Part shown: one piece after another, positions 6,427 through 26,849 of the stretch
Layout: each line of letters starts with the position of its first letter
Position numbering within the stretch: the stretch's first letter is position 1
DNA from: a virus
DNA length: 31,165 bases
Direction: 5' to 3' (one strand)
IMG/VR virus record: IMGVR_UViG_3300010885_006447
Span: 1-31,165 of that record
Made by a program: the position numbers and the translations under genes
The notes under the pieces: generated by a model
Databases searched by the model: none
What the model was told of the DNA's origin: nothing
The model's input: only the letters and a program-made list of their open reading frames with translations

Positions 6427-9057
6427 TTAAGAGATTTTAAGCCAGTAGCTTGCTGGTTGACTCCATCCTTGCGAGTGTGCGCTATTCCAATTTGAATATG
6501 CCGGACTTGCAAATGTGTAAGTGTCATAAGTTGGTGATATTGAGTAGCCCCAGTTGTCGGTAATGTTGTCAAAGTTTCCTGGATATGTGGGCCATCCTGC
6601 TCCGCCTGTTACTGCGGCTGTTCCGCCTTCAGCAAATCCACAACCATCGTTTCTATTGTCAAGAGTATAGCCGTCAAAAGTCATGCCATTCTGAGTGCTG
6701 CCGCCCCAACAAGATTTAAGCCAAGTGTTGGCTGTGACGTTGTTGTTTACTGTGTCTACTCCGCTACTAGAGCCGCCGTTCCAGTCGTTTTTATTTCGTG
6801 CTCTGTAACCTTCAACACCCAACCAACGAGCATTGCCGTCAAGGTTAAAATACCAGTTTTTCCAAGTTGTGCCTGCATTAAGAATTCTAAAACAGGCTAC
6901 ACCCTTATTTCTTCCGTTGATAACTAGTGCGTCAATAAATGGCTGACCTAGGTTGCCTGCTGTGCTGCCTGTTTGACCTGTGTTGATTATTGAAGTATTT
7001 TGTGAAAACATGTTAAAGGGAACGTTGACTTCAAAATCATCTACGTGGCGTCCATCAGTAACTGAAGGTCCACAAAAACTCATTAACATCCATCCGCCGC
7101 CTGCGTTGGTCATGTCACACCATACTTGTTTTGGTTGTCCAGTAAATCCTGCTGGCAAAATCCAATAGTATCCGTTGGTTGTTGTTCCTGTTAAGCGTTT
7201 GATAGCCATAGCACTTGGTGCTGGATTATCAATAGTTGATCCAATGTTACCGTTTACCTGTGGTCGATCATAGGAAATCCTAGTGGTATTGTAGTTTTGT
7301 AATACTTCTCTTTCTAATAATGCACGAGAATACACTCTTATGGTAGAAAGTCTACCTAGCCACCCGCCAGTTTCGCCAGCATTTGTTTTGCCAACAAGTG
7401 AAGATTCCGGCCAGCCAACTGACGAAATGCCGTACCATACGGCTGTTCCTGAAAATCTTCCATTAATAAAGTATTTAATAAGCCCGTTTTCCACAGTTGC
7501 AACCACATGGCTCCATGTGTTTAGTGGAACAGTGCCTGCACTATATGAGTATCTTGGATTGCCGTCGTAATGATATAACTGCACCTTACCGTCTGTATAT
7601 ACACCAAAATTCATGTATACATTGCCCTTGCCAAGAATACATTTTTGCAAATATTGTTGGGTTGGGGAACCATATCCGGTTGGATAAACCCATGTTTCAA
7701 AAGTAAATGCGGCTGTTGCAGTATAATTGAACATGGCTACAGGTAATGTGCCGTATGCGGCTCCTGTACCAGCTAGTGTAAAGTATGACGGTAAAATAAT
7801 TGTTGATCCAGCAGTATAACTAGGAGTCCCAGTTAGTGTGGCATCATTACCTCTATTGCTAACGTCAGTCCAAGTAGTATTGCTTGTTATAAAGCTAGTT
7901 GCAGACAGATGAGTTACTATGCCGTTGGAGACAATACCAGATGATATATCGTCAATTTCCCATGTGTTGCCTGCACTGAATGTTTCTACTACACCGGGAG
8001 CTGTATTAAATCTAAGTTGCCCTACAGGTTGTGTAGTTGACGTTGCTAGTGTGAATCGAATGATAACAACGCCACTGCCGCCGTTACCTGAAACGTTAAC
8101 AGAAATACCCATTCCGCCACCGCCACCGCCAGTACTTGCACCTGCGGCGCCGCCAATACAGTTTGGAGTTGCACTGCCATTAATACCGTCGGCACCATTA
8201 TTGACTCCGCCTTTGCCGCCCAGGCCTGCCACGTTAGGAGTTCCTGAGTTTGCTGTCCATACAGCTCCGCCGCCACCACCACCAACGCCACCATTGCCTG
8301 CTGTAGATCCAAAACCGCTACCGTTTTGTGCGCCGCCACCACCGCCTCCTGCGTAAAAATAAGAAGTTCCGCTGATGCTAAATGCCAGTCCAGGGCCACC
8401 ATTGCCGCCATCTTTTCCAGGTCCTACTGCGTCTGCACCTTTGCCGCCTGCGCCGCCACCACCTGCGCCACTATATGGTCCGTTAGAATACCATAAGATT
8501 TTATCACCACCCGGAAATCCCTGTCCTGCTGTGCCTGCACCGCCGTAATGTGCAATTGCATTAGTTGTATCGTGGCCTGCGCCACCTCCACTTCCGCCGC
8601 TTGCACCGTTGATATTACTAGTTCCGTAGGCACCTCCACCTCCACCGCCAATAGCAGTTAATGTACCAAACACACTGTTTGTTCCATTTACGCCTATAGC
8701 GTTAGCCGATCCGGCGCCAGTAAACCCGGCGCCACCTGTGCCCACAGTTACAGAGTATGCTGTACCAGGAACTACAGGAAATGCTGAGTTATATATTAAT
8801 CCACCTGCGCCACCACCGCCTGCTGATCCGCCAGCTCCTCCGCCAGCAACTACTAATACTTCAATGCTAGTAACACCAGTTGGGCATGTCCACGATGTAT
8901 TAGATACTGTTCCGCCAGATCCGGCTAGTACAGTAAACGCTTGACTACCAGTGTTAGTCCACTGTATTGCAGTATTGGAAAATAAACTAGGGCGAGTTGC
9001 GCTTGGTAATGTTAAGTTTCCGGTGTCATTTACGGTTAAACTTTGCAGGTTTGCCAT
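6427..9057 (-). CDS. Glycine-rich adhesin with LamG and fibrinogen-like domains (876 aa)
   Basis: Three recognisable domains follow one another. Residues about 55-335 are a polyglycine module (WTCPTGVTSIEVLVVAGGG to GSGVVIIRFT). Residues about 445-595 look like a LamG/concanavalin-type sandwich: AFTFETWVYP, then LNTWSHVVATVENGLIKYFI with NGRFSG, and IRVYSRALLEREV. Residues about 612-876 start with TNGYYWILP and QVWCDMTNAGGGWMLM, the hallmark opening of a fibrinogen C-terminal-like domain. They continue with cysteines in KSCWGG and DGCGF and end in ASYWLKIS. All three are sugar- or surface-binding folds, so a receptor-binding role outside the capsid is likely. The start is one base after the stop of the S74 gene, suggesting translational coupling; AAAAGGG in the upstream gene's end could be its ribosome site. 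Confidence 0.87.
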   Translation of the reverse strand: MANLQSLTVNDTGNLTLPSATRPSLFSNTAIQWTNTGSQAFTVLAGSGGTVSNTSWTCPTGVTSIEVLVVAGGGAGGSAGGGGAGGLIYNSAFPVVPGTAYSVTVGTGGAGFTGAGSANAIGVNGTNSVFGTLTAIGGGGGGAYGTSNINGASGGSGGGAGHDTTNAIAHYGGAGTAGQGFPGGDKILWYSNGPYSGAGGGGAGGKGADAVGPGKDGGNGGPGLAFSISGTSYFYAGGGGGGAQNGSGFGSTAGNGGVGGGGGGAVWTANSGTPNVAGLGGKGGVNNGADGINGSATPNCIGGAAGASTGGGGGGMGISVNVSGNGGSGVVIIRFTLATSTTQPVGQLRFNTAPGVVETFSAGNTWEIDDISSGIVSNGIVTHLSATSFITSNTTWTDVSNRGNDATLTGTPSYTAGSTIILPSYFTLAGTGAAYGTLPVAMFNYTATAAFTFETWVYPTGYGSPTQQYLQKCILGKGNVYMNFGVYTDGKVQLYHYDGNPRYSYSAGTVPLNTWSHVVATVENGLIKYFINGRFSGTAVWYGISSVGWPESSLVGKTNAGETGGWLGRLSTIRVYSRALLEREVLQNYNTTRISYDRPQVNGNIGSTIDNPAPSAMAIKRLTGTTTNGYYWILPAGFTGQPKQVWCDMTNAGGGWMLMSFCGPSVTDGRHVDDFEVNVPFNMFSQNTSIINTGQTGSTAGNLGQPFIDALVINGRNKGVACFRILNAGTTWKNWYFNLDGNARWLGVEGYRARNKNDWNGGSSSGVDTVNNNVTANTWLKSCWGGSTQNGMTFDGYTLDNRNDGCGFAEGGTAAVTGGAGWPTYPGNFDNITDNWGYSISPTYDTYTFASPAYSNWNSAHSQGWSQPASYWLKIS

Positions 9058-10548: not shown

Positions 10549-13500
10549 TTATCTTTGTCCGAAATATACTAAAGCAACTGGTGCCCCATCTATTCCGCCC
10601 GTAAATGTCATTTTACTACTTACGTAGATTTGTGCATTGTTAGTATTACTTATCGTATTTCCAGCAATGTATATCTGTCCTGATGTGATAGTATTTACGT
10701 TCAGCGAACTCTGACCGCCACCAATCTGTGCTGTAATAAATGCTTTAATAGCCTTCTGTGTAGGTACTACACCATCACTGTTAGCTGTAAAGTACGGATC
10801 AGTTGAGAACTGATAAATTGTTGCTGATCCAACTCCTAAACTAACTGATCCAAGTGTCAAACTCTGTAGGCCTGACAAGTTAAACGCACTAGCGTTCAAT
10901 GTAGCAGTACCAGTTGACTGTTGAACTCCGAACAAATTACCAACGTTGAAGTTACCGTCTTGGTCAGTACTTGTAAAGAATACTCGTCCGCCACCAACAA
11001 ACAACTCTTGATTTGCTGATACTGCTTTAGTAGCATCAACATACGGATAATTAGTAGCTGTGACACCACCTGTACCAATATACAAGAAATCATGTCCAGT
11101 TAGTCGAACGTTACTATAAGACAAGTTAGTTGTGATCAACTCATTGTGTGCTGGCGCTAACAATGTTGATAGTCCAGGATTAATCTGGAATGTAGCACTA
11201 TAGTTACCTGGAACCCCTAGTACATTAGTTACACTAACTAGTTTATACCAGCGATTAGTTCCTGTAATACTACTGAATACCACATTACATCCTGCGGTTG
11301 GTATTTGATATAGACCACTTACGTTTACATACGAACCTACTTGATACAAGTCAGCATATCCATCACCTAAATAGCTTGCTGTAGCAGTTGTGTTAGCAGT
11401 ACCTCGATGTGCAAAACTTGGATTACCTAATGCGCCATTACCAATACGTGCAACAAGTGGTGCTGTGTTAACCTTGTTAGGATCAGTTTGTGTAATGATT
11501 GGGCCTGCAAAGTATGTCATTCCAGATGGAGTAGATGCTGTTAACGCAAAGACTGCTCCACCAGCTGTAGTAGATATTTGAATAGTACCTGCTAGCCCAC
11601 TTGTACTTGTTGGAGTTCCCTTAACATAATAATATGTTCCAGCAACAATACCGCCAGAACTTGTGCCATTAAACACAATAGGTTGGTTAGCTGTTAAGTT
11701 GCTAATATTATCAACGGTGATAGTACCAGTACTTGTTGTGCTTGTTGCTGTAACATTACCGCGTGGAAATCCACTGCCTGGTTCGATCATTCTAACTTCA
11801 CTAACTTGATTGTTAACGACCTTGATACGGCCTTGTGGGCGAGCACCAGTCTGTATTCTAGTAGCAGTCTTACCGCTAGTATTAGATACGGCTACCCATG
11901 TTGGAACTGCACCTAATGTAGCATTTTGAGGATTACCAAATACTAGACCTAACCAGTTGCTTGAACTTGGCATACCGGTTGCATAGTAAGTCCAGTTTAG
12001 ACCATCTGGACTAGTAGCTACTGCTTGGCTTGAAGTTGCTACGGCAACAAACAATCCCTGGCCGTATCTAATTCTACTCCAAGTTGTTATACCGTTGGCA
12101 TATAGTGGGTTGTTTAGTACAGTAACCCATGTGTTATTTGCCGCAGGTGATGGAGTTGTTACCCAAGCATTTGTTTGCCAGTTAGTTGTATAGCATAAAG
12201 TTCCATCACTGGCCAGTGCCACAAAACGTCCATTACCGTATGTAACACTTGCCCAAGTTTTACTTGGTAATGTTGCACCTGCATACCATACTGTTGGATC
12301 TGCCGCAGTAAATGAACTTACAGTTCCGCCAATTGCACAGAATACTCCTGCACCGTAGGTAATATTAGTATAACCCGAGGCGTTTGTTGTAATGTTGCTT
12401 GATCGATCTGACCATGTGCCAGATGGACTACCACTTAATGATACTGCTGACGCACCGCTTGTACCACCAACAGCAATGTATAAATTATTACCATATGCTA
12501 GTGATTTAAGATTAGTTTTACCTGTTGTTCCGCCAGTAGCACTCCATGTTCCGCCTTGATCTGCACTATATGCCGCAGATGCTGTAGCTGTAGAAATAGC
12601 CACAAATGCCGCGTTTGGATCTGTTACTGTCACTGCTGGAGTCGTAGTATACCCATAACCTGGTTGTGATATAGTATAACTTGTTACGCCATAACCTGCC
12701 GCATTAGTATTTGTGTTGGCTCCGGCTACTGCTAGTGTTCCAACATACGCTAATGATACGTTAGTTCCGCCGCTACCGACACCGCTAGCACCGTAACCAG
12801 ATTTACCATAAACTGCATTGGTAAATGTTGGTTTTGTTGAGCTAAATGTTGTTCCTGATCCACTAGCATAATAGTAGTTAGTCACGTTTGGACTTACAGT
12901 TGTATCAACTGCTGAATAATAATTTCCAGCTGTTACGGCGCCACCTGAACTCCAACCAGTGGCTGTAAATGGAGGTGCAATAGTTACAATAGGACTAGCA
13001 TAGTATCCGCTACCCCATGTTGTAGCAGTAATACTTGATAAGCTACCTGTTACAGCAGTAATAATTGGGCTTACATATAAGCTACCAGTGATTATCATAT
13101 CAACTGCCTGTATAGAACCGTTTAATACACGAGCTGTTGCTGTTGCTCCGGCACCAGTTGCATCTGTAATAACAATAGTTGGCGGTGTTAGATAGTTATA
13201 TCCGCCGCTGACTACAGTAATGCTGATAATTTGTCCTGCTGTATTTCCAGTTCCAATAACTGCTGTTAAGACAGCACCCGATCCGCCAACGCCTCCAACT
13301 ATTGCAGTAGCTGTTGCATTTTGGCCGCCACCGTATACAACACTTCCCCATTGAGCACTTGCATCTGTTGGTAATGCTCCGCCGGCTGCCCATGTAGTTC
13401 CGTCTGCGGTAGTTGCTGTACTGGCAACTCCTGTAGCATTTGATGTAGCAACAAACTTGCCTTGACCGTATGCTACGCTTGCCCATGTAGTAGTTACTGC

Positions 13501-16500
13501 CGCTGTCATTGTAATTGCTGTACTAGTAAATCCTGGTGCAGTATAAGACAACGCTGGTTCAATAATATATCCGGATGTAGCATCTAGCAACGAGTAAACT
13601 GTGTTACCCGGAACTACATGATCCCATCCTGCTTCATATACTGGAACTGCAATAGTTCCAGTGATCGCTGTACTTGCTAAGTTTTGGCTTACGCTAACAG
13701 TCCAAGTTGACCCTGCTCCCGAACCGCTAATATTAGCAACAACGTATGTGTTAGGTAATACTGATCCGCCGGTTAGCAACATACCTGGATAGATTGTACC
13801 CGATGTTAATGTTCCTACAGTTAGTGTAGTTCCAACAATAATCGATGCGGCTGTTACTGCGGGGGTTGCACTAGTTGCGTTCAATGAAATATTAGTACCT
13901 GCGGCAGCATTTGCAGCCGAAGTAGCTAGTCTAAATGTTGTGCTGGTTAAACTTGTTGTACTTACATAGTAAACTGTTCCAGTAGTTAAACCAGCAATAG
14001 CCGCACCTAAATAGATTGGTTGTCCAACATGCATAGTTGCTGTGCTAGCCACTGTGAATACTGTAGTATTGTTTGTTGTAATAGTCAGTGTTGCAAAACT
14101 TGGACGAACTACGTTAGCGAGTTTGTTGCTTTGAGCATATCCAATGATATTGGCGTATTGTCCTACGCCTGTACCAGCTATAAGTTGGATTCTCATACCA
14201 ACATAAGCCGAACTTAGTTGAATATCACTGTTAGCAATAGTTATAGTACCGACTGTACCAGTCTGTGCTACGTTACTTGCTGTTAGATAGTTGCTGCCGC
14301 CTGTTCCTTGTCCGTTGTTTAAGTCAACTAGTCGTGTTTCAAACACTGCCGAGTCACGGAACTCGTCTTGTATTGTTACAATATTATATCCTGCTCCGTT
14401 AACTGTTGGCAATGTATTTGTGTATTGGCTACCTGCGTTTTCAAATTCTAAACGTAGAATCTCATCAACACTGTCTGTTACTACGTTTGTAACGTATGCT
14501 GGGCTAGCACGGTTATTTAAACGACCGTAAATTGGAGTTTCATAACTGTCAATACCTTCAGCAATAACACCATATGTACCATATGAACTATTACCGTTAG
14601 TAGCACGGATACGTCCACCGTATTCTGCTAGGTAACCTGCATATGAATAGTATGCGAATACTGAAACAAGTTCAGTTAAGGCGTTAGACCCAGTACACCA
14701 TACGCCAATACCATCACTGATAATAGTTGTGTAGTCGTTAGCAACAATAGATTTATTACCGCCAGCATGTAATGCCGCGTCAATCTTCATACCGCTACAT
14801 CCAGAACCAAACAATGTCAAGTTTTGTGTATACGGTGAGCGATTACTAATCCATGCCGCGCTGTCGCTAGGACCAAATCCTGCGTCAAGACTTGAGTAAG
14901 ATCCAGCTGTTGGTCGGCGAGTTCCTAGTGCATTAGGCAAAGTTAGTGCGCCATTTAACCCGTTTGTAGTCATATTACGTAATCCAGAAGCATTACGTAG
15001 ATGGAACAAGTCTGTTGCTGTAGAACCGCCTTGTGCTGACAGGTAAATTCTTGCAGAACGTGTTGATTTATAGTTACCTGTTAATCCTAAGTCGTAAATT
15101 AATCCGTCAATGTGATAAGTTGCATCACGTACTGCCTTAGTTGTATCAATAAAATAGCTTACAGTCATTGTACCGGTGCCGCCAGTTAATGTTTTAGTAG
15201 TTTGTGTTCCTTTTCCGGGCTGTGTTATTGACACAGTCAATGTTGCAGTAGTTGGGGTTGTTAATACCCAGTATACTGTGGTTGGTGAAAGACTAACATC
15301 AAATACGGTACCGCTGAATACTACAGGATCGCCTACTGTTAAGTTATGTGCTCCGCTACAAGTAATTGTGCCGTTAGTAGCTGTAGTTGTTACTGTTCCT
15401 GTAAACTGCGATAGAACATATGCAACTGCTTCGTTAGCTAAAAATTCTTTATTAGCACGGATAATTTCTGCACCTTGAATAGTAGCCAATGTATTATTAT
15501 AACCACTGGTCATACTGTATGATCCTGTTGGATTATTCCAAGGTTGAATAGTTCCGTTAGTATTTTTATCACAAATGCCTTGATTGATCGGCATACCTGC
15601 TGTGCATGTAGCTGTTAAACTTCCAACGGTATTAGTAATTGCAAATGCTGTGCCACTCTTATATGACTCAGTAACTGTAATTGTAGTGCCTGCAGAAGGA
15701 TATGTGCCAGCAGTTACAGTATTGATCCAATACTGAGCACCGTTTACTAGGCCGCCTGCGGCATTGAAGTTTGCTGTTAATGTTAATCCAGTAGCATTAG
15801 TCAATACCAATGCTGTTCCGCCCAGTGTCGCGGCAATAGTAATTGCACTTGCACTTGCAGTCTTAACATAATAAACTTGATTAGATACAATGCTTGATTG
15901 AGTACCTGTAGCTTGTGGTGTAAATCCTGTGAACCAAACTTTTTGTCCAACAACTACACCTAGTGAGCTTACTGTTGCACCAAGTGTAATGCTACTACTT
16001 GAAATAGTAGTTGCTGTTGTGGTAATATTTGCAGGCAATCCAGTGAATACAATTGGCATGTTAACTAGCATGCCAGCATTACTTGTAACAGTAATCAAGT
16101 TTGTACTTGTAGTTACAGTGGATACTGGGATAGTTGTTCCACTTGCTGTAATATCTGTTGTTAGACCAAGACCACCATAGATGCCATAGACAACTGCCGT
16201 CATGGCTCCTGTGCCAGCACTTGTAATATCAAATGTTGTGCCAAGATATGTTTGGCTAATTGTAAACTGTGTTGAACTCAATACTTGTTTAATATAGTAT
16301 GTGCCTGCTACAAGATTACTAATAGTTGTTCCTGTAATAGTAATAACTAGGCCTGGGACAAACCCGCTAGTAGTACCTGCTGTAAGAACATCATTGTATG
16401 TATTTCCATTAAGAACAATACTTGTAGTTGCGCTTGTAATACTAGTAGTAGTAGATGCCGCTGATTGATTATAGTTTAATAACCATGTTGTACCACTACC

Positions 16501-19500
16501 TGAAACAATAGTAGTACCGTTAGCAATGCCAATGCCTGCTAGTTGCATACCTACTGCAATAGTTCCTGTTACTGCACTATTAACTACTAGTTGTGTACCG
16601 GTAATTGTACCGTTAAATGTTGCTGTTGTTGTGGGTTGTCCGTAAATCTGTGCAACCATTTCGTCGATAACAGTTCTAGTTTGTACTACAGAACCATTTG
16701 AAGCCACTAGTTTAACACGTTCGCCAATAAATCCGATAGATCCATATGTCGAGTCTGCAAGGCTTGTATGTAGTGTAGCAACTGAAGTAACTAGTCTGTT
16801 GTATGAACGACCGCATTGAATACTTTGGAAGTTGCTGCCGAATAGCACGTCATATGCCAATGCACTAACAACGTAACCTGCATCACGATTTGTTAATGAT
16901 AGAATTGGACTTTCATTTTGATAGAATCGTGTTACCCATGATTGAGCATCATTTGCAATTTCACTAGCGCGAGCCTGTACTGCATCATATGATGCTTTGT
17001 TTGCTGTTGATGCTAGTGCGTATGCACCTGATACTATTGGGGTAATAACTAGTGTAGAACCAGTAGCTGTAGCCGACTGGCTTATGCTGATAGTCCAGCT
17101 TGTTCCAGATCCTGCTGTGATATAAGTGCCTGCGGCAATAGTACCACCTGTAACAATCTGTCCAATCTTGATTGTACCGCTTACACCACTAACTGTTAGT
17201 GTTGTACCGCTTGTTGTTCCAGTGAATGTTGCCGCTGATGTATCAGCTGAGCCATTATTGATCCAGTATAAAATATCTGCTACACGAGCCTGTGCAAATG
17301 CCGCGGCTGCGGCAGATCCTGCTGTACCAGTTATATATTGTGTGGTTGTGTTTCCAACGCTTTCTGTAACATTTGCCTTGGTAATAACTTGGCCAATAAC
17401 TGTTGATAATCTAGCTAGCGAGTTTTGTACACCTTTTAAATATGGTGCAAATAGTTGCGCTGTATTCAAACTGTAGTATGAACTACCAGTGATTACTGAC
17501 TGAGTGTTGCTACCATAAGTTAAGTCGTAGCAGATTGCGTCAAGCATAAATCCTAGATCGCGTTTTGTTTCTGCTTTATAAGTTTCGCTGTAGTTTACCC
17601 ACTGTTCAGAACCAGTTAGGTTTGTGTCAGTGTTTAAGAAAGCAACAATCTCATCTTTAATGTACTGATAGTTAGCCTTAATCAATGTTACTGCGTCACC
17701 GTAGTTAGCAAGATATGATGTGTTATACCCTGTAACTGTTGGCATACTGATAGTTGGCTCATATGACAATCCGTTAGGATAGTTTGGATTAGTTGGGCCA
17801 GTAATAACTGCGCCTGCACTAAACATGTCTTGAATAATTTTAGTATTGTTAACTACAAGATTAACAGCTGATAAATTACCTGTGTCGCCTGCAGGTAATG
17901 ATGTTACCTGAGTTGCGGTGTTAGGGAATGTTGTTCCTGTAGTAGTAGGAGTAATTGTAGTATTGGCTACTAGATCAGCAACTACTGATTGAATACGCAA
18001 TAGCGCGGCTGATGTCTTAGGTCTGTCATTGCCTAGATATTGTTGTGGGCCAGCAACTTGCACAATCGTGCTACGTAGTTCGTCGCCAACAACAGCAGTA
18101 TATGCCGGAACTACAATCGGACCATATTCATTATATGTTCCTGTTTTTAAATATATTGTAGTATTTGGACGAACTAGTTGAGGAATATTTCCATATGTGC
18201 CTGCTATTAATGCGCCAGTAATGATGCTTAATAAGTCTTGCGCGATTACTGTTGAGCCATTTTCAATCAAACTAGTAGTTACAGTAGTTCTATTTTGAAT
18301 AGCGTTAACGCTAACACCGTTTAAAGTTTGATAATTGGCTGCTGGCGCAGAGTTAGTCATCACTGCTGGAAATAGCGTGTCTTTTAAATATGCAAGACTT
18401 CCTGCAAATACAGGAGCTTGTTGAGCAGTACCGGTACTAGTGAAACTTGTTAATGTTCTAAAGTATGCTTGAGTAGCAGTTACACTATATAAGTTTCCGC
18501 CGTGAGTTAAGTCAAATATGATACCATCAATAACTGTTCCAGTATCTCGCTCTGCTTTACTCTGTGTATAGTTAAATGTAGCTGTTGATGCTGTAACACT
18601 ACTAGGAGTAATTGCTCGAGTCGAGCCACTTTGATATACATCACTAATTGTAAATGTTCCACTAGTTGGAATAGTATTTACATAGTAAACAGTTCCCACT
18701 GTTACGCCACCTGTTGCTGCCGAGAATGTAATAGGCATGCCATAATACATAGTCGCTGTAGTTATTTGGCTTGTACTACTAGTTCCGCCTACAATAAATG
18801 TGTTCCCGCTAGCACTTGTTCCAGTTACATTAAATGAATACTTGTTTAGAATATATTGGTTAACTTCTTTTATCATAAACTGTTTATTAACAGTTAATGC
18901 CAATCCGGCGTTAGAGTTTAAATATCCGTTTTCAATTTGTTTGCAAGCATATAACAAAGTTCCCCATGGTTTATCTAATGTTAAACCGTATCCGTTGCCA
19001 GATGCATCGGTGCCTGAAGGTGCAACATATACAATATTTTGTAGTTCACCATAGTATTTCCAACTTGGCTCATCGCCGTCAACACGTAAAACTTGACCAT
19101 CGAGACCAATTGGTAGTCGTACAGGACCATTTGCCCCGTAATATACCATGTCACCTTGTGTAGTCAATGCTCCGCTGTCAGCTCCGCTGGCTAATATGTT
19201 CCAGTAAGTTCCACTATCAGTAAGTGGGTCATTAACACCGGTAGACCCAGTATGAGCACTAATACAGATATAGCTACTATTTCCGTAATATACTGCATCA
19301 CCGTCAACGTAAGTTATACCAGTCTTCCAAGTTGCCGCATAACCCGTAGATACAGTAAATGTACCGATCGGACCTGTTGCTCCGCCGCCGGTGATAGTTG
19401 CTACTTTAACAACCAAATCGTTGCCAGGGCTTGCTCCACCTAATGCGCTACCTAACACTTTTAATGTGTCATTGACTGTGTATCCAGTCCCTGCTGTACT

Positions 19501-20817
19501 ACCGATAACTGCTGAATAGCTTGTTCCGGTACGTGTGACTGTAATAGTCGGGCTACCGGAGCCGGTTGCACTAACATTACTACTAGCAACGTTAGTGTAT
19601 GTAGTGTTAGCGGCGGTTGCCCAACGAATACCAGAATTTAATTTGCCCCACTTTAGGCTTATACCTGTACCTGTTAAAGAAGAACTAGATACTGTTTGAC
19701 TATTATTAACTACCCAACTAGTTCCGCTACCTGAAACAATAACTGTTCCCGCTGAAACTGTTCCCCCGGTTACTGTCATACCAATTGTAATTGTGCCAGT
19801 TGGTGAGGAAGTTGTTAACGCAGTACCACTTATACTGCCTGTAAATGTTGCAATATTTAAAGCAGGTGGTTTTGAAGATGAATTATCAGCTTTGGCTATG
19901 TAGCTATATCCGCCTAATGTTACAATACTACCAATTTTATAATCTGTGCTATTGTTCCATTCACCAGTGTACACTAGACCAGTTGTAAATATTTTCCAAT
20001 ATGTTGTTTCTGTACTTGGTATTTTTGGACTTGCAGAGCCGTTATTTTCTATTGCCGTATAGGTATATCCGCCATATGTTACAACGTCACCTATTTGGTA
20101 TTCATTATTTAGGCTCCAAGATCCTTCGAACTCAAAACCGTGAACAAAAATTTCAAAGTTTCCAGTGTCAATGGTTGTACCTGTCGAAGTATGGTGTGTT
20201 GTACATATCCACAAATCAGGGCCAAATTTAACAACATCGTTTAGTTTGTATCGTACACTACTGCCACTCCACAAGCCAAGAAAAGTAATACCTTGATTAA
20301 ATGCATCCCACTTAGATGCGTCAAGTTCTAATCCGTCTGACACTGTTGCGGCAGATGTATGTTGAGTTTTACAAACATAGGTGCTACCACCGTAGTAGAC
20401 AAAATCACGAACTTTATATCGTGTGCTTGTTGCCCATGCACCAAGCCATTTGAATCCTGCAGAGAATTGATCCCATTTACTTAGGTCATCTTCTAAATAA
20501 GTTTGGCTAGTATGTGCAGTCTTACAAACATACACAACTGCTCCCCATATAACTATATCACCTAGCTTATAATAAGTAGTTGCGGCCCATGTATTGCGCC
20601 ATGTTGTACCGTCAGCAATTAAGTTCCATTTAGTAACTCCGGGAATACCGGCTACATCGGTAGCGAATCCAGATACTGAGTTTGTTGACGTGTGACTGAT
20701 TACACAAATATATGTTTTTCCACCGTTGGTAACTACATCGTCAACCACATAACTGCGGTTTTGTGCCCATGCACCTTGGTATACAAACTTAATTCTACCT
20801 AATTTAAATTCTGCCAT
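10549..20817 (-). CDS. Giant modular fibre/tailspike-like protein A (3422 aa)
   Basis: Order of parts by residue: about 13-310, six CBM-like repeats (W...Y..GDxVxxGGxxYxC...HTS...W); 316-380, a GSGTSW module; 493-548, a seventh repeat; 549-590, an ALTTQGD linker; 592-635, VYVAPSGTDASGNG..LDKPWGT, the usual lead-in of pectin-lyase-like beta-helices; 640-1950, helical repeats (NK/ANxxxxxE ... RDxxxxxDxxxxDL) and a KTGTYNEYGPIVVP helix motif near 888-905, with many inserted beta modules; 1936-2090, more beta-helix; 2440-2960, propeller-like repeats (YGxGxFVAxxxxxxxxxSxDGxxW); 3240-3422, a C-terminal domain (DGNFNVGNLFGVQQSTGTAT; GVVPTQKAIKAFI). It is probably a long fibre or spike that binds and possibly cleaves surface sugars. 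AGAGGAT 8 bases before ATG sets the start. It is a paralogue of the broken gene B upstream. Confidence 0.88.
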   Translation of the reverse strand: MAEFKLGRIKFVYQGAWAQNRSYVVDDVVTNGGKTYICVISHTSTNSVSGFATDVAGIPGVTKWNLIADGTTWRNTWAATTYYKLGDIVIWGAVVYVCKTAHTSQTYLEDDLSKWDQFSAGFKWLGAWATSTRYKVRDFVYYGGSTYVCKTQHTSAATVSDGLELDASKWDAFNQGITFLGLWSGSSVRYKLNDVVKFGPDLWICTTHHTSTGTTIDTGNFEIFVHGFEFEGSWSLNNEYQIGDVVTYGGYTYTAIENNGSASPKIPSTETTYWKIFTTGLVYTGEWNNSTDYKIGSIVTLGGYSYIAKADNSSSKPPALNIATFTGSISGTALTTSSPTGTITIGMTVTGGTVSAGTVIVSGSGTSWVVNNSQTVSSSSLTGTGISLKWGKLNSGIRWATAANTTYTNVASSNVSATGSGSPTITVTRTGTSYSAVIGSTAGTGYTVNDTLKVLGSALGGASPGNDLVVKVATITGGGATGPIGTFTVSTGYAATWKTGITYVDGDAVYYGNSSYICISAHTGSTGVNDPLTDSGTYWNILASGADSGALTTQGDMVYYGANGPVRLPIGLDGQVLRVDGDEPSWKYYGELQNIVYVAPSGTDASGNGYGLTLDKPWGTLLYACKQIENGYLNSNAGLALTVNKQFMIKEVNQYILNKYSFNVTGTSASGNTFIVGGTSSTSQITTATMYYGMPITFSAATGGVTVGTVYYVNTIPTSGTFTISDVYQSGSTRAITPSSVTASTATFNYTQSKAERDTGTVIDGIIFDLTHGGNLYSVTATQAYFRTLTSFTSTGTAQQAPVFAGSLAYLKDTLFPAVMTNSAPAANYQTLNGVSVNAIQNRTTVTTSLIENGSTVIAQDLLSIITGALIAGTYGNIPQLVRPNTTIYLKTGTYNEYGPIVVPAYTAVVGDELRSTIVQVAGPQQYLGNDRPKTSAALLRIQSVVADLVANTTITPTTTGTTFPNTATQVTSLPAGDTGNLSAVNLVVNNTKIIQDMFSAGAVITGPTNPNYPNGLSYEPTISMPTVTGYNTSYLANYGDAVTLIKANYQYIKDEIVAFLNTDTNLTGSEQWVNYSETYKAETKRDLGFMLDAICYDLTYGSNTQSVITGSSYYSLNTAQLFAPYLKGVQNSLARLSTVIGQVITKANVTESVGNTTTQYITGTAGSAAAAAFAQARVADILYWINNGSADTSAATFTGTTSGTTLTVSGVSGTIKIGQIVTGGTIAAGTYITAGSGTSWTISISQSATATGSTLVITPIVSGAYALASTANKASYDAVQARASEIANDAQSWVTRFYQNESPILSLTNRDAGYVVSALAYDVLFGSNFQSIQCGRSYNRLVTSVATLHTSLADSTYGSIGFIGERVKLVASNGSVVQTRTVIDEMVAQIYGQPTTTATFNGTITGTQLVVNSAVTGTIAVGMQLAGIGIANGTTIVSGSGTTWLLNYNQSAASTTTSITSATTSIVLNGNTYNDVLTAGTTSGFVPGLVITITGTTISNLVAGTYYIKQVLSSTQFTISQTYLGTTFDITSAGTGAMTAVVYGIYGGLGLTTDITASGTTIPVSTVTTSTNLITVTSNAGMLVNMPIVFTGLPANITTTATTISSSSITLGATVSSLGVVVGQKVWFTGFTPQATGTQSSIVSNQVYYVKTASASAITIAATLGGTALVLTNATGLTLTANFNAAGGLVNGAQYWINTVTAGTYPSAGTTITVTESYKSGTAFAITNTVGSLTATCTAGMPINQGICDKNTNGTIQPWNNPTGSYSMTSGYNNTLATIQGAEIIRANKEFLANEAVAYVLSQFTGTVTTTATNGTITCSGAHNLTVGDPVVFSGTVFDVSLSPTTVYWVLTTPTTATLTVSITQPGKGTQTTKTLTGGTGTMTVSYFIDTTKAVRDATYHIDGLIYDLGLTGNYKSTRSARIYLSAQGGSTATDLFHLRNASGLRNMTTNGLNGALTLPNALGTRRPTAGSYSSLDAGFGPSDSAAWISNRSPYTQNLTLFGSGCSGMKIDAALHAGGNKSIVANDYTTIISDGIGVWCTGSNALTELVSVFAYYSYAGYLAEYGGRIRATNGNSSYGTYGVIAEGIDSYETPIYGRLNNRASPAYVTNVVTDSVDEILRLEFENAGSQYTNTLPTVNGAGYNIVTIQDEFRDSAVFETRLVDLNNGQGTGGSNYLTASNVAQTGTVGTITIANSDIQLSSAYVGMRIQLIAGTGVGQYANIIGYAQSNKLANVVRPSFATLTITTNNTTVFTVASTATMHVGQPIYLGAAIAGLTTGTVYYVSTTSLTSTTFRLATSAANAAAGTNISLNATSATPAVTAASIIVGTTLTVGTLTSGTIYPGMLLTGGSVLPNTYVVANISGSGAGSTWTVSVSQNLASTAITGTIAVPVYEAGWDHVVPGNTVYSLLDATSGYIIEPALSYTAPGFTSTAITMTAAVTTTWASVAYGQGKFVATSNATGVASTATTADGTTWAAGGALPTDASAQWGSVVYGGGQNATATAIVGGVGGSGAVLTAVIGTGNTAGQIISITVVSGGYNYLTPPTIVITDATGAGATATARVLNGSIQAVDMIITGSLYVSPIITAVTGSLSSITATTWGSGYYASPIVTIAPPFTATGWSSGGAVTAGNYYSAVDTTVSPNVTNYYYASGSGTTFSSTKPTFTNAVYGKSGYGASGVGSGGTNVSLAYVGTLAVAGANTNTNAAGYGVTSYTISQPGYGYTTTPAVTVTDPNAAFVAISTATASAAYSADQGGTWSATGGTTGKTNLKSLAYGNNLYIAVGGTSGASAVSLSGSPSGTWSDRSSNITTNASGYTNITYGAGVFCAIGGTVSSFTAADPTVWYAGATLPSKTWASVTYGNGRFVALASDGTLCYTTNWQTNAWVTTPSPAANNTWVTVLNNPLYANGITTWSRIRYGQGLFVAVATSSQAVATSPDGLNWTYYATGMPSSSNWLGLVFGNPQNATLGAVPTWVAVSNTSGKTATRIQTGARPQGRIKVVNNQVSEVRMIEPGSGFPRGNVTATSTTSTGTITVDNISNLTANQPIVFNGTSSGGIVAGTYYYVKGTPTSTSGLAGTIQISTTAGGAVFALTASTPSGMTYFAGPIITQTDPNKVNTAPLVARIGNGALGNPSFAHRGTANTTATASYLGDGYADLYQVGSYVNVSGLYQIPTAGCNVVFSSITGTNRWYKLVSVTNVLGVPGNYSATFQINPGLSTLLAPAHNELITTNLSYSNVRLTGHDFLYIGTGGVTATNYPYVDATKAVSANQELFVGGGRVFFTSTDQDGNFNVGNLFGVQQSTGTATLNASAFNLSGLQSLTLGSVSLGVGSATIYQFSTDPYFTANSDGVVPTQKAIKAFITAQIGGGQSSLNVNTITSGQIYIAGNTISNTNNAQIYVSSKMTFTGGIDGAPVALVYFGQR
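11505..11760 (-). other. Beta module present in A and absent from B
   Basis: About 85 residues (TSTGTITVDNISNLTANQPI to ALTASTPSGMTYFAG) lie between EPGSGFPRGNVT and PLVARIGNGALGNPSF in A. In B the matching stretch runs straight through: ETGSGYTSVPSVSL, then TPRISNGSLGNPTF. It belongs to the same 'QPIVFNG..GGIVAGTYYYVK' type found elsewhere in both giant proteins. Confidence 0.6.
12610..13330 (-). other. Insertion splitting a propeller-like blade in protein A
   Basis: The blade WGSVVYGGG...FVAISTATASAAYSADQGG...TW is interrupted after YGGG by about 240 residues, beginning QNATATAIVGGVGGSGAV and ending VTVTDPNAA, just before FVAIS. The insert holds GSGY/TPPTIVITDATGAGATATA-type modules. In neighbouring blades YGNGRFVALAS and YGQGLFVAVAT run without a break. 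Confidence 0.6.
15560..16630 (-). repeat. Run of tandem beta modules in protein A
   Basis: About 355 residues made of consecutive small beta modules: one GSGTTW type (GTIAVGMQLAGIGIANGTTI), then several of the type 'GMxVxxPIxFTG...G..YYVxxx..S..I.I....G.....L....G' (for example NAGMLVNMPIVFTG and ASAITIAATLGGTALVLTNA). They stand between the third and fourth helical repeat units. Some phage modules of this shape are picked up by E1-FCCH-like domain models; I cannot run that search. Confidence 0.55.
19165..20781 (-). repeat. CBM-like repeat ladder of protein A (7 units)
   Basis: Seven units of about 45-55 residues share W-x5-7-Y-x2-G/D-D-x-V-x3-G-x2-Y-x-C/A and mostly end HTS...W (examples: YKLGDIVIWGAVVYVCKTAH; YVDGDAVYYGNSSYICISAH). 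The pattern recalls CBM5/12 chitin-binding modules and is common at the N-termini of marine phage fibre proteins. Units 1-6 are contiguous; unit 7 is separated and split by inserted modules. Confidence 0.7.
19340..19615 (-). other. Wandering GSGY-type module inserted in CBM repeat 7 of A
   Basis: About 90 residues beginning NTTYTNVASSNVSATGSGSP and including KVLGSALGGASPGNDLVVKV sit between GIRWA and ATWKTGITYVDGD. Removing them joins a normal CBM-like repeat start (compare GFKWLGAWATSTRYKVRD in unit 3). A relative of this module occurs in gene B at 25900-26145 inside a different domain. Confidence 0.6.
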
Positions 20818-20877: not shown

Positions 20878-23800
20878 TTATCGTCTTCTCATAAACATAT
20901 CTAACGCTGCCATATTTCCGTCTACACCTTTACCTGTAATATACATCTTGTTGGCAATTTTAACAGCCGACCCAATGGAGCCGTTAGCCACAGTTGATCT
21001 AATAAAGTTTGGTCCGCCGACGTTTACAGTACCAGCAATAAAATTACCAGTAAATGTATTTGCGCCGCCTTGACTTAAACGTCCGGTTAAGAACGACTTA
21101 ACTGCTCGCTGTGTTGGCACTATTGCATCTGAGTTTGCGGCAAAAGTTGGGTCTGTACTAAATTGTGTAATAACTACGCTCGAACTTCCTACAGCAATGC
21201 CGCCTAGGCTCAACGTTTCTAATCCAGTTAATCCAAATTGTGTTGCACTTAGGGTAACTGTTCCTGTTGCCTGTTGTACTCCAAACAAGCCGCCAACACT
21301 AAAGTTACCATTTTCGTCTGTACTAGTATAGAAAATATGTCCTTGATTTGTTTCGACTGCCTGTTGATTTATTTTTGCTGTTGTAATGTCAATATATGGA
21401 TAATTAGCTGTGGCTTTATTTCCTGTGCCGACAAGCAAGAAGTCATGATTGGTTACACGACACTGACTATATAATTGACGGAGCTGAATTTGTGTTCCGT
21501 TTGCCGGACTCAATGTTGTAGTCATTTCAGGTGATATTTGTACACTTGCTTCGATAAACGGAGCTGTTGTCCCAAATACGGCTGTAGCACTAGTTACCTT
21601 ATAGACTTGATCGATTCCTGCAATAGATAAATTGCTACCAACTAACGGTACGGTATTTAGATTACTAACAATTAAGTTTAATCCTATTTGATACGTGTCT
21701 GCATAACCATTACCTGTAATTGTTACTACAGTTGAAGTTGTGTTATATCCAGTTCCTCTATTAACAAAAGTTGGATTACCTAAAGAACCGTTACTTATGC
21801 GTGGTGTAACTGTTGCGTTAACTGATACGTTGTAATCAATAAGGCTTACAGAAGGTACTGAGGTATACCCGGAACCAGTTTCCCATATAGATACTCCTGA
21901 TATCACTCCAGAGTTAACACTTGGTCTACCCTGTGCTCTTGCACCTTCACTGATTACTGTTGCATTTCCGGACGAGTTACCATCTCCAGTTAATGTTGCA
22001 AATACCCCAACATTAGAACTATTAAATCCAAACTTTATTGCATTAATACTTCCGTATGTTAATGTCCTTGTTTTCCAATAGATGCTGTGCTCACTGGCAT
22101 ACGCAGTTGTACTTTCAGAGTTCACAGCTACAAATACTCCTTGACCGTAACTTATCGAAGTTGCAGACATGTAGGTTGCTGATTTCTGCCAGTTAACTCC
22201 GTCAAAGCTGTATGCTGAACGTAAACCTGTTCCTGTCTGTACTGCTACAAATTTATTATTTCCAAAGGTTACATCAGTATATTCTGGTGCGCCAACTGCA
22301 AATGTTAATCCAGCTGTTGTACCTGCGCCAGTTGTTATTGGATTTGTTCCTTGAATTGCGTTAATATAAGTGGTTGCAAGAGTAAATGATGTTTTACCGT
22401 TAGTTGCACTAATATAATAAGTACCGTTTGTGATAGTACACTGACCGCCTGTACCAGCTGCCGGACTAAGTGCGCCTGATACCCTAATACTCTGTCCAAC
22501 TACTAATTGAGTAGTAGTAGTTGTACAAGTAAACTGTCCGGCACTACCAATAATAGTTACGCCACTTAACGTAGTATTGCTTATAGGCAATGTAGAAGAA
22601 GTCCATGTTACACCGTCTGGACTCCAAGCTGTTTGCCCTGTACTATTAACAGCAACAAATAGTCCAGAACCATATGTTAGTGCTACCCATGAACCAATAG
22701 TACTTGTAATAGCTGTGCTTGCGTCACTATTATCTAAATGCATTAATAACATTGTATTTGTATCAGATGTAAAGGGTGCTATTGCAGGACTAAATGTAGT
22801 TGTATATCTACTTACGCCTCTACTAACACGCACTTCATCAATATAACCAGTAGCATTTAGTGATCCAGTCCATGATGCTCCTATTCTTATTGGTCTGGCT
22901 GCATAGGTATTAGCATCTGTATAAGTTGTAGGGGTTAACGTGCCGTTAACAAATATTCTGGTTATTCCACTTGCTCTTGACACCGCTACATGATTCCATG
23001 CGCCTGCTGAACAAGCTACGCTAGATGTAATCTGATAAGCGTTATTAACAAATAATCTTATATTTCCAGATGCATTCATTTCTAAATATATTGCCGCATC
23101 ATTACCAGAACTACGTTGATCAATTAATACCTGTTGTGCTCCAATGGCAGTTGGTCTCCAGAAAAATTCAATAGTGAAGTCTTCGTTGTTATATGCAAAC
23201 TTTTCATCGCTTGCTACAGTAATATAGCTTGATCCGTTTAAGTATAAACTAGAAATACCAAATTTGTATTGCGTAGTACTTATTACAGGACTTCCTGTTA
23301 GTGTCACTGCGGTACTACTTGGTAAACTAGTTGCTGTCCATGTTTGTGCTTGATTAGTTGAGTATGCTGTGCGGGTGTTATCACTGCTGATGGCTACAAA
23401 AGTTCCATTACCATAGGCAATCTTACTCCATGTTGACTTGGTAGGTAATGCGCTAGTTCTCCATCCTAGTCCGTTGGAATTAGTATATGCTACTACAGAG
23501 GTACTGCCAATTGTAGTTGTTCCTAGTGCCGCAAAATAGTAGTTTCCATATGCAATACTGCTCCATGATGCTACTGTAGGAGGTAGCGCCACTGATGACC
23601 ATGTAGAACCATTTGATGATGCCGCTCCTACAGATCCGGTAGTTGGCGTTGCTATAAAGTAGTTGTTGCCATAAGCTATGCTGTTAAAAGATGCCCCACC
23701 AGTTAGTGGTGTTTCTACATTTCCAGACGACTGAGAATACGCTGGCAATGTAAACACTGTTCTAGGTTCAATAAAGTATGCGCTTGTTGAATCAAGAGCT

Positions 23801-26661
23801 ATTGCTGATTGAGTTCCAGGAGTAATATTGTCCCAGCCGCTTGCTGCCATTTGCATATTTCCTACTCCAGTAGTTAATGTAATTGGAGTGCCGGCTAACG
23901 AAGTACTAATAGATAATGTTGGATTTGCACCGGTTGTTAATGCAGTTATATAATAAACAGTATAAGAGTTTACGCCGCCAAACAAGCTAGTTGAGAATGT
24001 TCCATTCATTGTACTGATATTTCCAACACTATTTGTAACAACTAATCTAGTCCCGGTGCTGGTTAATGTCATCGATCCTGTGCCGCCGCCTAATGATAAT
24101 GGTTCAGGGCACGTTCTTGCTTGTATTAATCCTGCTCTAGTAGTTAGAGTAAATGTATTAGTTTTGTCAGCACTTATAGTAATCTCATTTGTGGACGGAT
24201 TAATTGTTTGTATATAATATACTGCTTCAGGCACAATATTGCCAAACGTAGTACTTGTGGCAATTCCACTGAATATAATAGGCTGGCCTTGAACAAACTC
24301 TGTAACACTTGTCATTTTAATCAAGTTTGTGCCGAATGTTGTACTTGTAGCAGTAGTTCTGATGATACTTTCTGCAATGTTAAAAGTACTGCCGTCGACA
24401 ATTTTACTAATATAGTAAGTTGTTCCCGGTTGAATTGCTGAGTCAAAGATTGTTCCACTAAACACAACTGGATTTAATGGTACTAGACTCGTTGTAGTTG
24501 TTGCCACAGTATTAGTTGTTCCGCCAACTGTTGTTGTTGTCGTTAGCGTAACTTTATTTGTAGATACTGTGAAGTTATTTGCGTCGATAATATCGTTAAT
24601 GTAATAGCTAGTTCCTAAAACAACGCCACCCAATGCTACGCCAGTAAAATCAATATCAATATTTGGTACCATGTTTGCTGTTGGGGCTTTAATGTATCCA
24701 GAATATCTTGGATAAGTCATTAGTTGTGATCCGCTTGCTATTGTTGATAAGTCGATTGGGTTTCCAGATAATTCTGCAGATATTTGAATAAGATTATTAA
24801 CATAGTCAATGTCAACAATATAGTATTCATATCCTGGAGTAATATTAAAAGGCCCTTCTCCAAATGTCACTTTCATGTTTAGCAATAAACTTGCTGTTGG
24901 TACAGCAATAGTGTTTATTACTCCGCCTACTGTTGCCGTAACAACAACAGTATCAGTTGATGTTGCAGTTGCAGTTGTGGTATAATATGTAGGAATAAAC
25001 TGCACTGCTTGGTTAACATACCAAGTACTTACATCACTTCCAGATACTAGTGTTAGTAAGTTATTGGCAGGAGTTGCATTGTAGGTCGATGCTACTACTT
25101 CTACTGGGTCGACACTTTCTTTTAATACTAGTGCTGTTTTAGCAGAAATACCATTTGAGTCTACTCCTGATGTAATATTATAATAAGAGATAAATCCGTA
25201 TTGGCCAGCTCCTGTGCCGGATTGTACAAATACACGCATGCCTAGATAGTTATAAAGTCCCTGATCAGTAGGCGATAATGTAATAGTATTAGAGTTGCCG
25301 TCTTGTGCTGTATTTGAACTATTTGCGTATCCTGCGCCGCCTGTGTAGCCATTGCTGTCGGTTGTAATCCTAGCATTAAAAACTGCTCGACTTCGAGGTT
25401 CGTCTCCGGATAATATTGCGCCGGCGCCGGCTCCGACAACTTGATAGTTTGCATATGCTGTAAATCTATTAGTGGTTGTTTCAAGATAAAAATCTGGCAA
25501 TGGGTCTGTTCCCGATATCTCTACTTGAGATCCATAAATTATGGAGTAAGTGTTCAATAGTGGAGCATTTGCACCTTGCGGGAAAAATTTATAAGTTAAA
25601 GTATTATTAACACCTGTTGAGTCGCTAATAGACATCCATACTCTATACCATCCGGCTACTAGAGTTTTTTGAGCACCGTATTGAACTGGGAATGTTCCGC
25701 CGTTAGCACTATTTGTAAGACTAGTTCCGCTGTACGGTGTCACTGTATGACTAGAAACATTATAGTTAATGCCACTAGTTACTGTTGTAGTTCCCGAGAA
25801 TATTGCCTGAATGTCAACGCTTGCTGATGTTCCTGCATATACATACATGCTTAGTGTGTATGATTGATTGCTTCCAGAAGGCACAGTACCAGATGTTGCT
25901 GAAATTGTGGAAATGCCGGTGCCTGCTAAGTTGCCTACAACAATAGTTAAATCGTTAATAGTATCTCGGCCACCAAGTAGTGATCCAAGGATTTTAATAT
26001 TATTGCCTGTTTGATATAATGATCCAGGTGATCCTGCACTTACTGTCACCACATACGCAGTAGGAGTTACTACAATATCAAATGTTGCCCCGGTGCCCGG
26101 AGCACCGTCTTGGGTTACTCCGCTTATGTTAGTATACGTATAGCCGGCCGGATTGATCAAAATACTTTGTTGAATATATCCGGCTCCTGGAGTTGCTGTT
26201 GCACCGGTAAGTAACCATGCTTCGGTATACCCTGTAGGAGCAGTATTATTCTTAGTAAATGACAAATTAGCATCATTAGTCCAGGTGCTAAGAAAATCAT
26301 TACTATACTTTAACATGTTAGTTGTAGCACCATAGTATGCAGATCCTGCATTGGTATAGTTTAATTTTAATAGTTGGTCTGTTGTACCAAATGCACTAGT
26401 GACTTCTGCCTGAACTTGTTGTGATTGATTGTTTACAGTTCCTGTTACTGGAACTTCAGTCAAGTCGTATCCTTCACTTACAACTCCAAATGTACCATAA
26501 GAGCTATTACCGTTAGCTGAACGAATGCGGCCTCCTGCTTCTGCAAAATAACCTGCATAGCAATAGTATGAAAACACGCTAATAGCTTCTGTGATGGCTC
26601 CTGGTCCTGTACACCATATGCCGATACCGTCGCTGATTACCATAGTGTAATCGTTAGACAC
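20878..26661 (-). CDS. Giant gene B, C-terminal fragment (1927 aa from a GTG)
   Basis: The GTG at 26661 falls inside SKSIVSNDYTMVISDG, which matches A's NKSIVANDYTTIISDG. The homology starts upstream near 26889, so this is a continuation, not a new gene. Parts by residue: 1-100, beta-helix; 120-395, a CBM-like domain (NMLKYSNDFLSTWTND; YTLSMYVYAGTS; GWYRVWMSISD) interrupted by a wandering module; 450-970, many beta modules (QPIIFSG..YYIQ types); 990-1546, propeller-like repeats (YGNGTFVAISSDNTRTAYS) with a LamG domain at 1117-1309; 1600-1700, GSGY motifs; 1737-1927, a C-terminal domain (DENGNFSVGGLFGVQQATGT; AIVPTQRAVKSFLTG) shared with A. Confidence 0.82.
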   Translation of the reverse strand: MSNDYTMVISDGIGIWCTGPGAITEAISVFSYYCYAGYFAEAGGRIRSANGNSSYGTFGVVSEGYDLTEVPVTGTVNNQSQQVQAEVTSAFGTTDQLLKLNYTNAGSAYYGATTNMLKYSNDFLSTWTNDANLSFTKNNTAPTGYTEAWLLTGATATPGAGYIQQSILINPAGYTYTNISGVTQDGAPGTGATFDIVVTPTAYVVTVSAGSPGSLYQTGNNIKILGSLLGGRDTINDLTIVVGNLAGTGISTISATSGTVPSGSNQSYTLSMYVYAGTSASVDIQAIFSGTTTVTSGINYNVSSHTVTPYSGTSLTNSANGGTFPVQYGAQKTLVAGWYRVWMSISDSTGVNNTLTYKFFPQGANAPLLNTYSIIYGSQVEISGTDPLPDFYLETTTNRFTAYANYQVVGAGAGAILSGDEPRSRAVFNARITTDSNGYTGGAGYANSSNTAQDGNSNTITLSPTDQGLYNYLGMRVFVQSGTGAGQYGFISYYNITSGVDSNGISAKTALVLKESVDPVEVVASTYNATPANNLLTLVSGSDVSTWYVNQAVQFIPTYYTTTATATSTDTVVVTATVGGVINTIAVPTASLLLNMKVTFGEGPFNITPGYEYYIVDIDYVNNLIQISAELSGNPIDLSTIASGSQLMTYPRYSGYIKAPTANMVPNIDIDFTGVALGGVVLGTSYYINDIIDANNFTVSTNKVTLTTTTTVGGTTNTVATTTTSLVPLNPVVFSGTIFDSAIQPGTTYYISKIVDGSTFNIAESIIRTTATSTTFGTNLIKMTSVTEFVQGQPIIFSGIATSTTFGNIVPEAVYYIQTINPSTNEITISADKTNTFTLTTRAGLIQARTCPEPLSLGGGTGSMTLTSTGTRLVVTNSVGNISTMNGTFSTSLFGGVNSYTVYYITALTTGANPTLSISTSLAGTPITLTTGVGNMQMAASGWDNITPGTQSAIALDSTSAYFIEPRTVFTLPAYSQSSGNVETPLTGGASFNSIAYGNNYFIATPTTGSVGAASSNGSTWSSVALPPTVASWSSIAYGNYYFAALGTTTIGSTSVVAYTNSNGLGWRTSALPTKSTWSKIAYGNGTFVAISSDNTRTAYSTNQAQTWTATSLPSSTAVTLTGSPVISTTQYKFGISSLYLNGSSYITVASDEKFAYNNEDFTIEFFWRPTAIGAQQVLIDQRSSGNDAAIYLEMNASGNIRLFVNNAYQITSSVACSAGAWNHVAVSRASGITRIFVNGTLTPTTYTDANTYAARPIRIGASWTGSLNATGYIDEVRVSRGVSRYTTTFSPAIAPFTSDTNTMLLMHLDNSDASTAITSTIGSWVALTYGSGLFVAVNSTGQTAWSPDGVTWTSSTLPISNTTLSGVTIIGSAGQFTCTTTTTQLVVGQSIRVSGALSPAAGTGGQCTITNGTYYISATNGKTSFTLATTYINAIQGTNPITTGAGTTAGLTFAVGAPEYTDVTFGNNKFVAVQTGTGLRSAYSFDGVNWQKSATYMSATSISYGQGVFVAVNSESTTAYASEHSIYWKTRTLTYGSINAIKFGFNSSNVGVFATLTGDGNSSGNATVISEGARAQGRPSVNSGVISGVSIWETGSGYTSVPSVSLIDYNVSVNATVTPRISNGSLGNPTFVNRGTGYNTTSTVVTITGNGYADTYQIGLNLIVSNLNTVPLVGSNLSIAGIDQVYKVTSATAVFGTTAPFIEASVQISPEMTTTLSPANGTQIQLRQLYSQCRVTNHDFLLVGTGNKATANYPYIDITTAKINQQAVETNQGHIFYTSTDENGNFSVGGLFGVQQATGTVTLSATQFGLTGLETLSLGGIAVGSSSVVITQFSTDPTFAANSDAIVPTQRAVKSFLTGRLSQGGANTFTGNFIAGTVNVGGPNFIRSTVANGSIGSAVKIANKMYITGKGVDGNMAALDMFMRRR
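22735..23310 (-). other. LamG-like domain nested in propeller repeats of gene B
   Basis: About 190 residues with LamG/concanavalin marks: KFGISSLYLNGSSYITV, NEDFTIEFFWRPT, GAWNHVAVSRASGITRIFVN with GTL, IDEVRVSRGVSRY and NTMLLMHLDNSD. It is flanked by propeller-like blades on both sides (AYSTNQAQTWTATSLPSS before; VALTYGSGLFVAVNSTGQTA after). The same place in A has no LamG domain. Confidence 0.75.
25900..26145 (-). other. Second copy of the wandering module, inside a CBM-like domain of B
   Basis: About 80 residues (YTYTNISGVTQDGAPGTGAT; then NNIKILGSLLGGRDTINDLT) resemble the module at 19340-19615 in A (KVLGSALGG...NDLVVKV). Here it separates GYIQQSILINPAG from NQSYTLSMYVYAG, two parts of one CBM-like sandwich. 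Confidence 0.6.
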
Positions 26662-26849
26662 AATTGATTTGCTTCCGCCATTATGCAGATAGCCGTCAAT
26701 TTTAATTCCTGTAGAGCCGTCACCAAATACTGTAACGTTTTGTACATAAGGGCTACGTCGAATAATCCATACGCTAGTATCATTAGGTCCGGTTCCTGGG
26801 TCTAAACTAGTGTATGCGCCGCCTGTTGGTCTAGCTGTATCATATTCGT

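Follow-up and report, generated by a model that had tools for sequence, protein, structure and literature searches.

How a closed fold tolerates a block of some 240 residues inside one of its own repeating units, and whether such an arrangement points to a process that adds modules within folded units and not only between domains, are questions raised by a very large gene of viral origin. The DNA analysed here, called the window throughout, comprises an entire viral contig, 31,165 bases long, whose minus strand carries structural genes of tail type; terminase, capsid and portal markers were not recognised in this 31-kb fragment. The gene in question, gene A, is laid out as a series of CBM5/12 repeats, a long middle region, a propeller and a conserved C-terminal region, and the propeller repeats take the form W-x-S-V-x-Y-G-x-G-x-F-V-A ... 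S-x-D-G-x-x-W. Both A and its paralogue, gene B, have seven such blades. The features discussed below are collected in Table 1.

Table 1. Features of genes A and B in the window, with positions numbered from its first base
Feature	Position	Strand	Residues or sequence	Basis
Gene A, tail-fibre-like protein	10549..20817	minus	3,422 aa	
Module inside CBM5/12-like repeat near the A N-terminus	19657..19851	minus	SGSGTSWT-type	
A seven-bladed propeller, insert counted in	11842..13536	minus	2428-2992	AlphaFold2 and PDB match
A blade 1, uninterrupted	13351..13485	minus	WASVAYGQGKFVA...	
A blade 2, strand 1	13324..13350	minus	2490-2498; WGSVVYGGG	
Insert in A blade 2	12610..13323	minus	2499-2736; 238 aa	
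Nested module in a GSGY module of the insert	12736..12966	minus	~77 residues; TATGWSSGG...SLAYVGT	
A blade 2, strands 2-4	12511..12609	minus	2737-2769; AFVAISTATASAAYSADQGGTWSATGG..., AFVAIS ... SADQGGTW	
A blades 3-7	11845..12510	minus		
Different module in the GSGY module directly after the A propeller	11503..11754	minus	between GSGFPRGN and PIITQTDPNK	
Gene B, main open frame, paralogue of A	20878..26661	minus	1,927 aa	
B propeller and flanks, blade 2 uninterrupted	21850..23841	minus		AlphaFold2, 3ow8_A match
B blade 2, intact counterpart of the split blade of A	23431..23565	minus	WSSIAYGNYYFAALG...	
Laminin-G/ConA-like domain between B blades 3 and 4	22696..23307	minus		PF13385, E 9e-22
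Module between B blades 4 and 5	22282..22569	minus		

A blade in two halves

An initial sequence-only reading of the window had placed an insert of about 240 residues at 12610-13330, within one blade of A, where GSGY-type modules part the motifs YGGG and FVAIS while the neighbouring blades are unbroken. The position was right to within a few bases, and blade 2 consists of two halves parted by 238 residues of GSGY-type beta modules, which occupy the hairpin loop between strands 1 and 2; directly after them the protein resumes as AFVAISTATASAAYSADQGGTW. The description of the neighbours holds as well, the neighbouring blades being continuous except for some ten extra residues in the same hairpin of blade 7 (FGNPQNATLGAVPTWVAVS).

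An AlphaFold2 model of A residues 2391-3022, for which the alignment input was 61 A-type propellers, reached a pLDDT of 83 and a pTM of 0.78. When the model was compared with PDB chains, virginiamycin B lyase (Vgb, 2z2p_A) ranked first (Z 29.6, 2.3 Å), with 279 of 293 residues aligned over the model range 39-601, a likeness of fold only, at 10% identity, which carries no claim of Vgb membership. Because this match extends over the ring, everything in the model except the insert, short loops and the low-confidence N-terminus is explained by a ring of seven blades. In model numbering the strands of blade 2 flank the insert, one at 100-106 and two more at 347-352 and 358-361, and the strand order common to the other blades is matched in blade 2 only when these three are joined, strand pairing being deduced from the order of the strands together with the fold match. 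YGGG and FVAIS, which the sequence-only reading had assigned to a single blade, do fall in the same blade of the predicted structure. The model of B (pLDDT 85, pTM 0.83) is a ring of the same kind, with 270 residues aligned to 3ow8_A (Z 25.4), and its blade 2 is intact, with four consecutive strands. Both predicted models thus have the seven-bladed beta-propeller fold over the whole ring, and blade 2 of A is predicted to fold around the insert, the inserted block projecting from the propeller.

Distribution of the insert and of further modules

A first scan comprised 78 loci. After it, 78 A-type genes were compared (77 relatives and the window), and every one of them has the insert; the same split occurs in 61 of 61 aligned A propellers and is absent at blade 2 from every B-type propeller compared, so that the split in A is not a matter of chance. 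Its start, YGGG(Q/E)xATAxxxGG or a close variant, is nearly constant among the A-type genes, and all sampled members of the A clade keep the insert, even at identities as low as about 45%. The query of the third scan starts after the insert and therefore did not select for it. A tree of 114 genes was calculated from blades 3-7 and the C-terminal region with the insert left out; it is a quick tree with midpoint rooting, in which the insert state of eight genes was set by reading their sequences, the automatic call having been empty. All 36 insert-bearing genes form one clade (SH-aLRT 100) with one change of state, while the B side of the tree consists entirely of uninterrupted genes and those of the A side branch outside the clade. 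Since every insert-bearing gene groups in this one clade, the insert was most simply gained once, long ago.

Relatives with the uninterrupted form, which the sequence-only reading had suggested looking for, were found in the paralogue B, in B-type relatives, many of whose propellers have no insert anywhere, and in three A-side genes in which blade 2 is continuous (WTDVQYGAADNIWVAVASGG; L120, L121 and L122). Among the relatives sampled, no two near-identical genes were found that differ in the blade-2 insert. Searches of cultured phages gave no match, whether made by protein with the insert alone, by near-DNA comparison with gene A or for an uninterrupted A-side propeller. None of 56 pattern matches to the insert in genome contigs was confirmed, and Pfam gave nothing over its cut-off for the module types.

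Blade 2 is one of several sites at which the propellers of this family are interrupted. With loop positions in the relatives assigned from sequence against the A and B models, an LGGATPAND-type module is found in the strand 1-2 loop of blade 1 (L141, L148, L150, L154, L161, L166) and in the strand 2-3 loops of blade 3 (L042, L060, L063, L077), blade 4 (L042, L045, L123, L140) and blade 5 (L060, L063). The sister group formed by L141, L148, L154, L161 and L166 has a different module in the identical loop of blade 2, and L075 and L076 have a third module type in the second half of that blade. The largest case is blade 6 of the A-side genes L134|4796 and L142|4817, in which several modules totalling about 1,060 residues are inserted, far more than make up the propeller itself. 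It is thus supported that related propellers take modules within blades as well as between them, and with modules in several blades insertion within folded units is a recurrent pattern in this propeller family. Together with the uninterrupted homologues, these cases indicate that modules do get added within folded units here.

Further modules of gene A extend this pattern. A module of about 70-77 residues sits within a GSGY module of the insert in the window and in about half of its clade, the other members reading SGGGS at the same place, and the tree shows at least four changes of its state, as scored with a pattern that missed at least one gene in which the module is visible by eye (L051). 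As this module lies inside an insert that itself lies inside a blade, the window shows three levels. The GSGY module that follows the propeller, interrupted in A, is continuous in B at the corresponding point. Near the N-terminus of A, the SGSGTSWT-type module is present in the window, L002, L008 and L013 and absent from L003-L007 and L021, in DNA that otherwise matches.

In B the laminin-G-like domain and the module between blades 4 and 5 are both missing from most relatives. An inter-blade laminin-G domain resembling in sequence that of B in the window also occurs in L138|2189, which shares a contig with L024, and is lacking in the sister genes L019 and L028; the exact empty site for this junction could not be placed against them, the flanks being too diverged. 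Gene B itself occupies three successive frames at 20878-30436, whereas its relatives L090, L105 and L113 are continuous at about 2,650 aa, which implies either sequencing errors or a pair of frameshifts, one near 28.7 kb and the other near 26.7-26.85 kb.

Origin of the insert and route of the modules

It is very probable that A, a protein of tail-fibre type, contains one seven-bladed Asp-box-like propeller with a GSGY block in the hairpin of blade 2 that was gained a single time. The separation of the two halves by 238 residues of sequence could instead be taken to mean that YGGG closes one truncated blade and FVAIS opens another, with a GSGY domain between two part-propellers, but this can hardly be entertained when the model is a single ring aligned over nearly its whole length, when the strand pattern of the blade is complete only with the halves joined, and when the joined blade is seen in B and L120. 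Fixation of the insert throughout the sampled A clade would also be expected if the long loop were ancestral and had been lost in B and the other uninterrupted genes, no insertion having taken place. Such a history is nonetheless very improbable: the insert clade is nested, with full support, among uninterrupted genes on the A side and the whole of the B side, many B propellers are free of inserts throughout, and GSGY modules are found outside the propeller too. The block in blade 2 of A is supported as a true insertion inside a folded unit.

How the modules came to be there is a separate matter. The suggestion that a process adds modules within folded units is borne out as a pattern, in that modules lie inside several blades, but not as a distinct process, the gain in A being single and old and the insert ordinary in composition (GC 0.43, close to the 0.46 of the blades) and lacking any significant short direct repeat at its junctions. 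The longest exact repeat at its ends is 8 nt, as expected by chance when random pairs from this gene are compared (p 0.32); allowing one mismatch gives 12 nt (p 0.08). These values also speak against a dedicated element or diversity-generating mechanism that puts modules at propeller hairpins, as do the retention of the inserts in the protein and the inspected module junctions of A and B, where alignments with close relatives without the module overlap by 0-2 nt at the empty site; even with a few module families inserted repeatedly at equivalent hairpins, and patchily so among genes about 75-83% identical in DNA, a mechanism of this kind is very improbable. As to source alone, the insert may have been copied locally from the GSGY modules behind blade 7 of the same gene, an origin compatible with a single gain in the blade 2 hairpin. 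Both A and B have GSGY modules right after blade 7, and the insert is built of the same kind; on the other side, the insert and the LGGATPAND module match weakly when their profiles are compared (probability 51%), so that module sources cannot be ranked, and local duplication is conceivable but rather less than probable.

No special process is identified by these data. The most economical reading that we can infer is that tail genes rich in modules recombine in frame and that the tolerance of the fold decides what is kept; ordinary in-frame recombination with selection for tolerant loops explains the data. New modules would come, in frame, from tail genes of this kind that these phages have in common and would survive on landing in hairpin loops that tolerate them; the propeller would act as a scaffold on which they may add or change contacts with host-surface glycans. 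A bolder and distinctly tentative proposal is that the hairpin loops of the propeller are acceptor sites, at which a small set of mobile modules is placed repeatedly, in frame and in nested fashion, by a recombination route that diversifies tail fibres.

Comparison with known propellers and phage context

Among Asp-box propellers, those of organisational type 2, such as the Vibrio cholerae sialidase, have an inserted domain that interrupts the repeat array and yet form one propeller (Quistgaard and Thirup, 2009; PMC2716378). In the predicted models A and B likewise appear as one propeller each despite an interrupted repeat array, in keeping with type 2, and the inter-blade laminin-G domain of B resembles the lectin-like insert of that type (PMC2716378). 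A relaxed S-X-D-X-G-X-T-W (Asp-box) pattern is present in three of seven blades in A and in three of seven in B, with the Pfam BNR match below cut-off; one such motif of A, SADQGGTW, comes directly after the insert in blade 2. Asp-box propellers are described as having a well-defined loop 1-2 on the bottom face, with only the top face functional (PMC2716378), whereas in A it is loop 1-2 that holds the insert. The integrin alpha-I domain was also gained once in a seven-bladed propeller and took on binding functions, but it lies between blades 2 and 3 and not within a blade, and no homology is claimed (PMC10659397). In the NanI and NanJ sialidases a small beta domain, missing in NanH, is inserted in the propeller domain; the excerpted account concerns an enzyme with one such site, of about 70 residues, and reports no nested or recurrent series (PMC11525138).

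Phage tail fibres are known to be mosaic, with domains exchanged and gained (Smug et al., 2023; PMC10684548), although the main text of that study does not use 'propeller', 'inserted' or 'within domain' and does not treat insertion inside one blade. Domain insertion in general affects 20% of multidomain proteins, with nested cases known and inserts smaller than their hosts (PMC13114784); the main text of that survey contains neither 'phage' nor 'propeller', and here several module families enter one fold at many loops. In the limited collection of literature searched, no paper was found on domain insertion in phage propellers or on nested domain insertions in phages. Domain insertion, also into propellers, is thus already known; what is new is that one phage propeller takes insertions repeatedly, at several sites and one within another, with several module types inside blades at many loops, including loop 1-2. 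The genes form a natural series, from the empty blade through one module and a module within a module to several filled blades, which can be used to ask how insertions are tolerated in a closed fold and how tail-fibre diversity arises in uncultured phages on a scale smaller than the whole domain. The series also indicates that loop 1-2, described as conserved in known Asp-box propellers, can hold about 240 residues, little less than the size of the propeller.

Judged from its sequence, A appears to be a giant tail-fibre-type protein of an uncultured tailed phage, with a C-terminal region nearest to the Kyanoviridae (T4-like cyanophages). Both genes match the tail fiber protein profile phrog_9851 (E 2.5e-129 for A, 5.4e-49 for B), and the C-terminal region of A is 43-55% identical to Kyanoviridae tail-fibre proteins. 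Homologous C-terminal regions occur in S-CAM1, S-SSM7, P-SSM2, Mosig and Sf-FS3, of which the first four carry a tail-fibre annotation in one or more records, but the blade profile finds no blades in these Kyanoviridae genes, unlike A. A role as a receptor-binding tail fibre with the propeller as scaffold is likely, given the carbohydrate-binding modules, the LamG domains, the tail-fibre profile match and the S74 chaperone gene that adjoins the tail-fibre genes.

Several smaller features were seen around these genes. Downstream of gene A, L004 carries about 1.2 kb of extra DNA (17770-18974) relative to L009, and the ends of this segment bear a repeat of about 10 nt like CAATATTCAT. In the window a neighbouring open reading frame at 6427-9057 encodes a second laminin-G-like domain together with a glycine-rich one and matches Fibrinogen_C weakly, just under the cut-off, and at the edge of the tail genes a NUDIX hydrolase gene (PF00293) lies on the plus strand at 894-1328.
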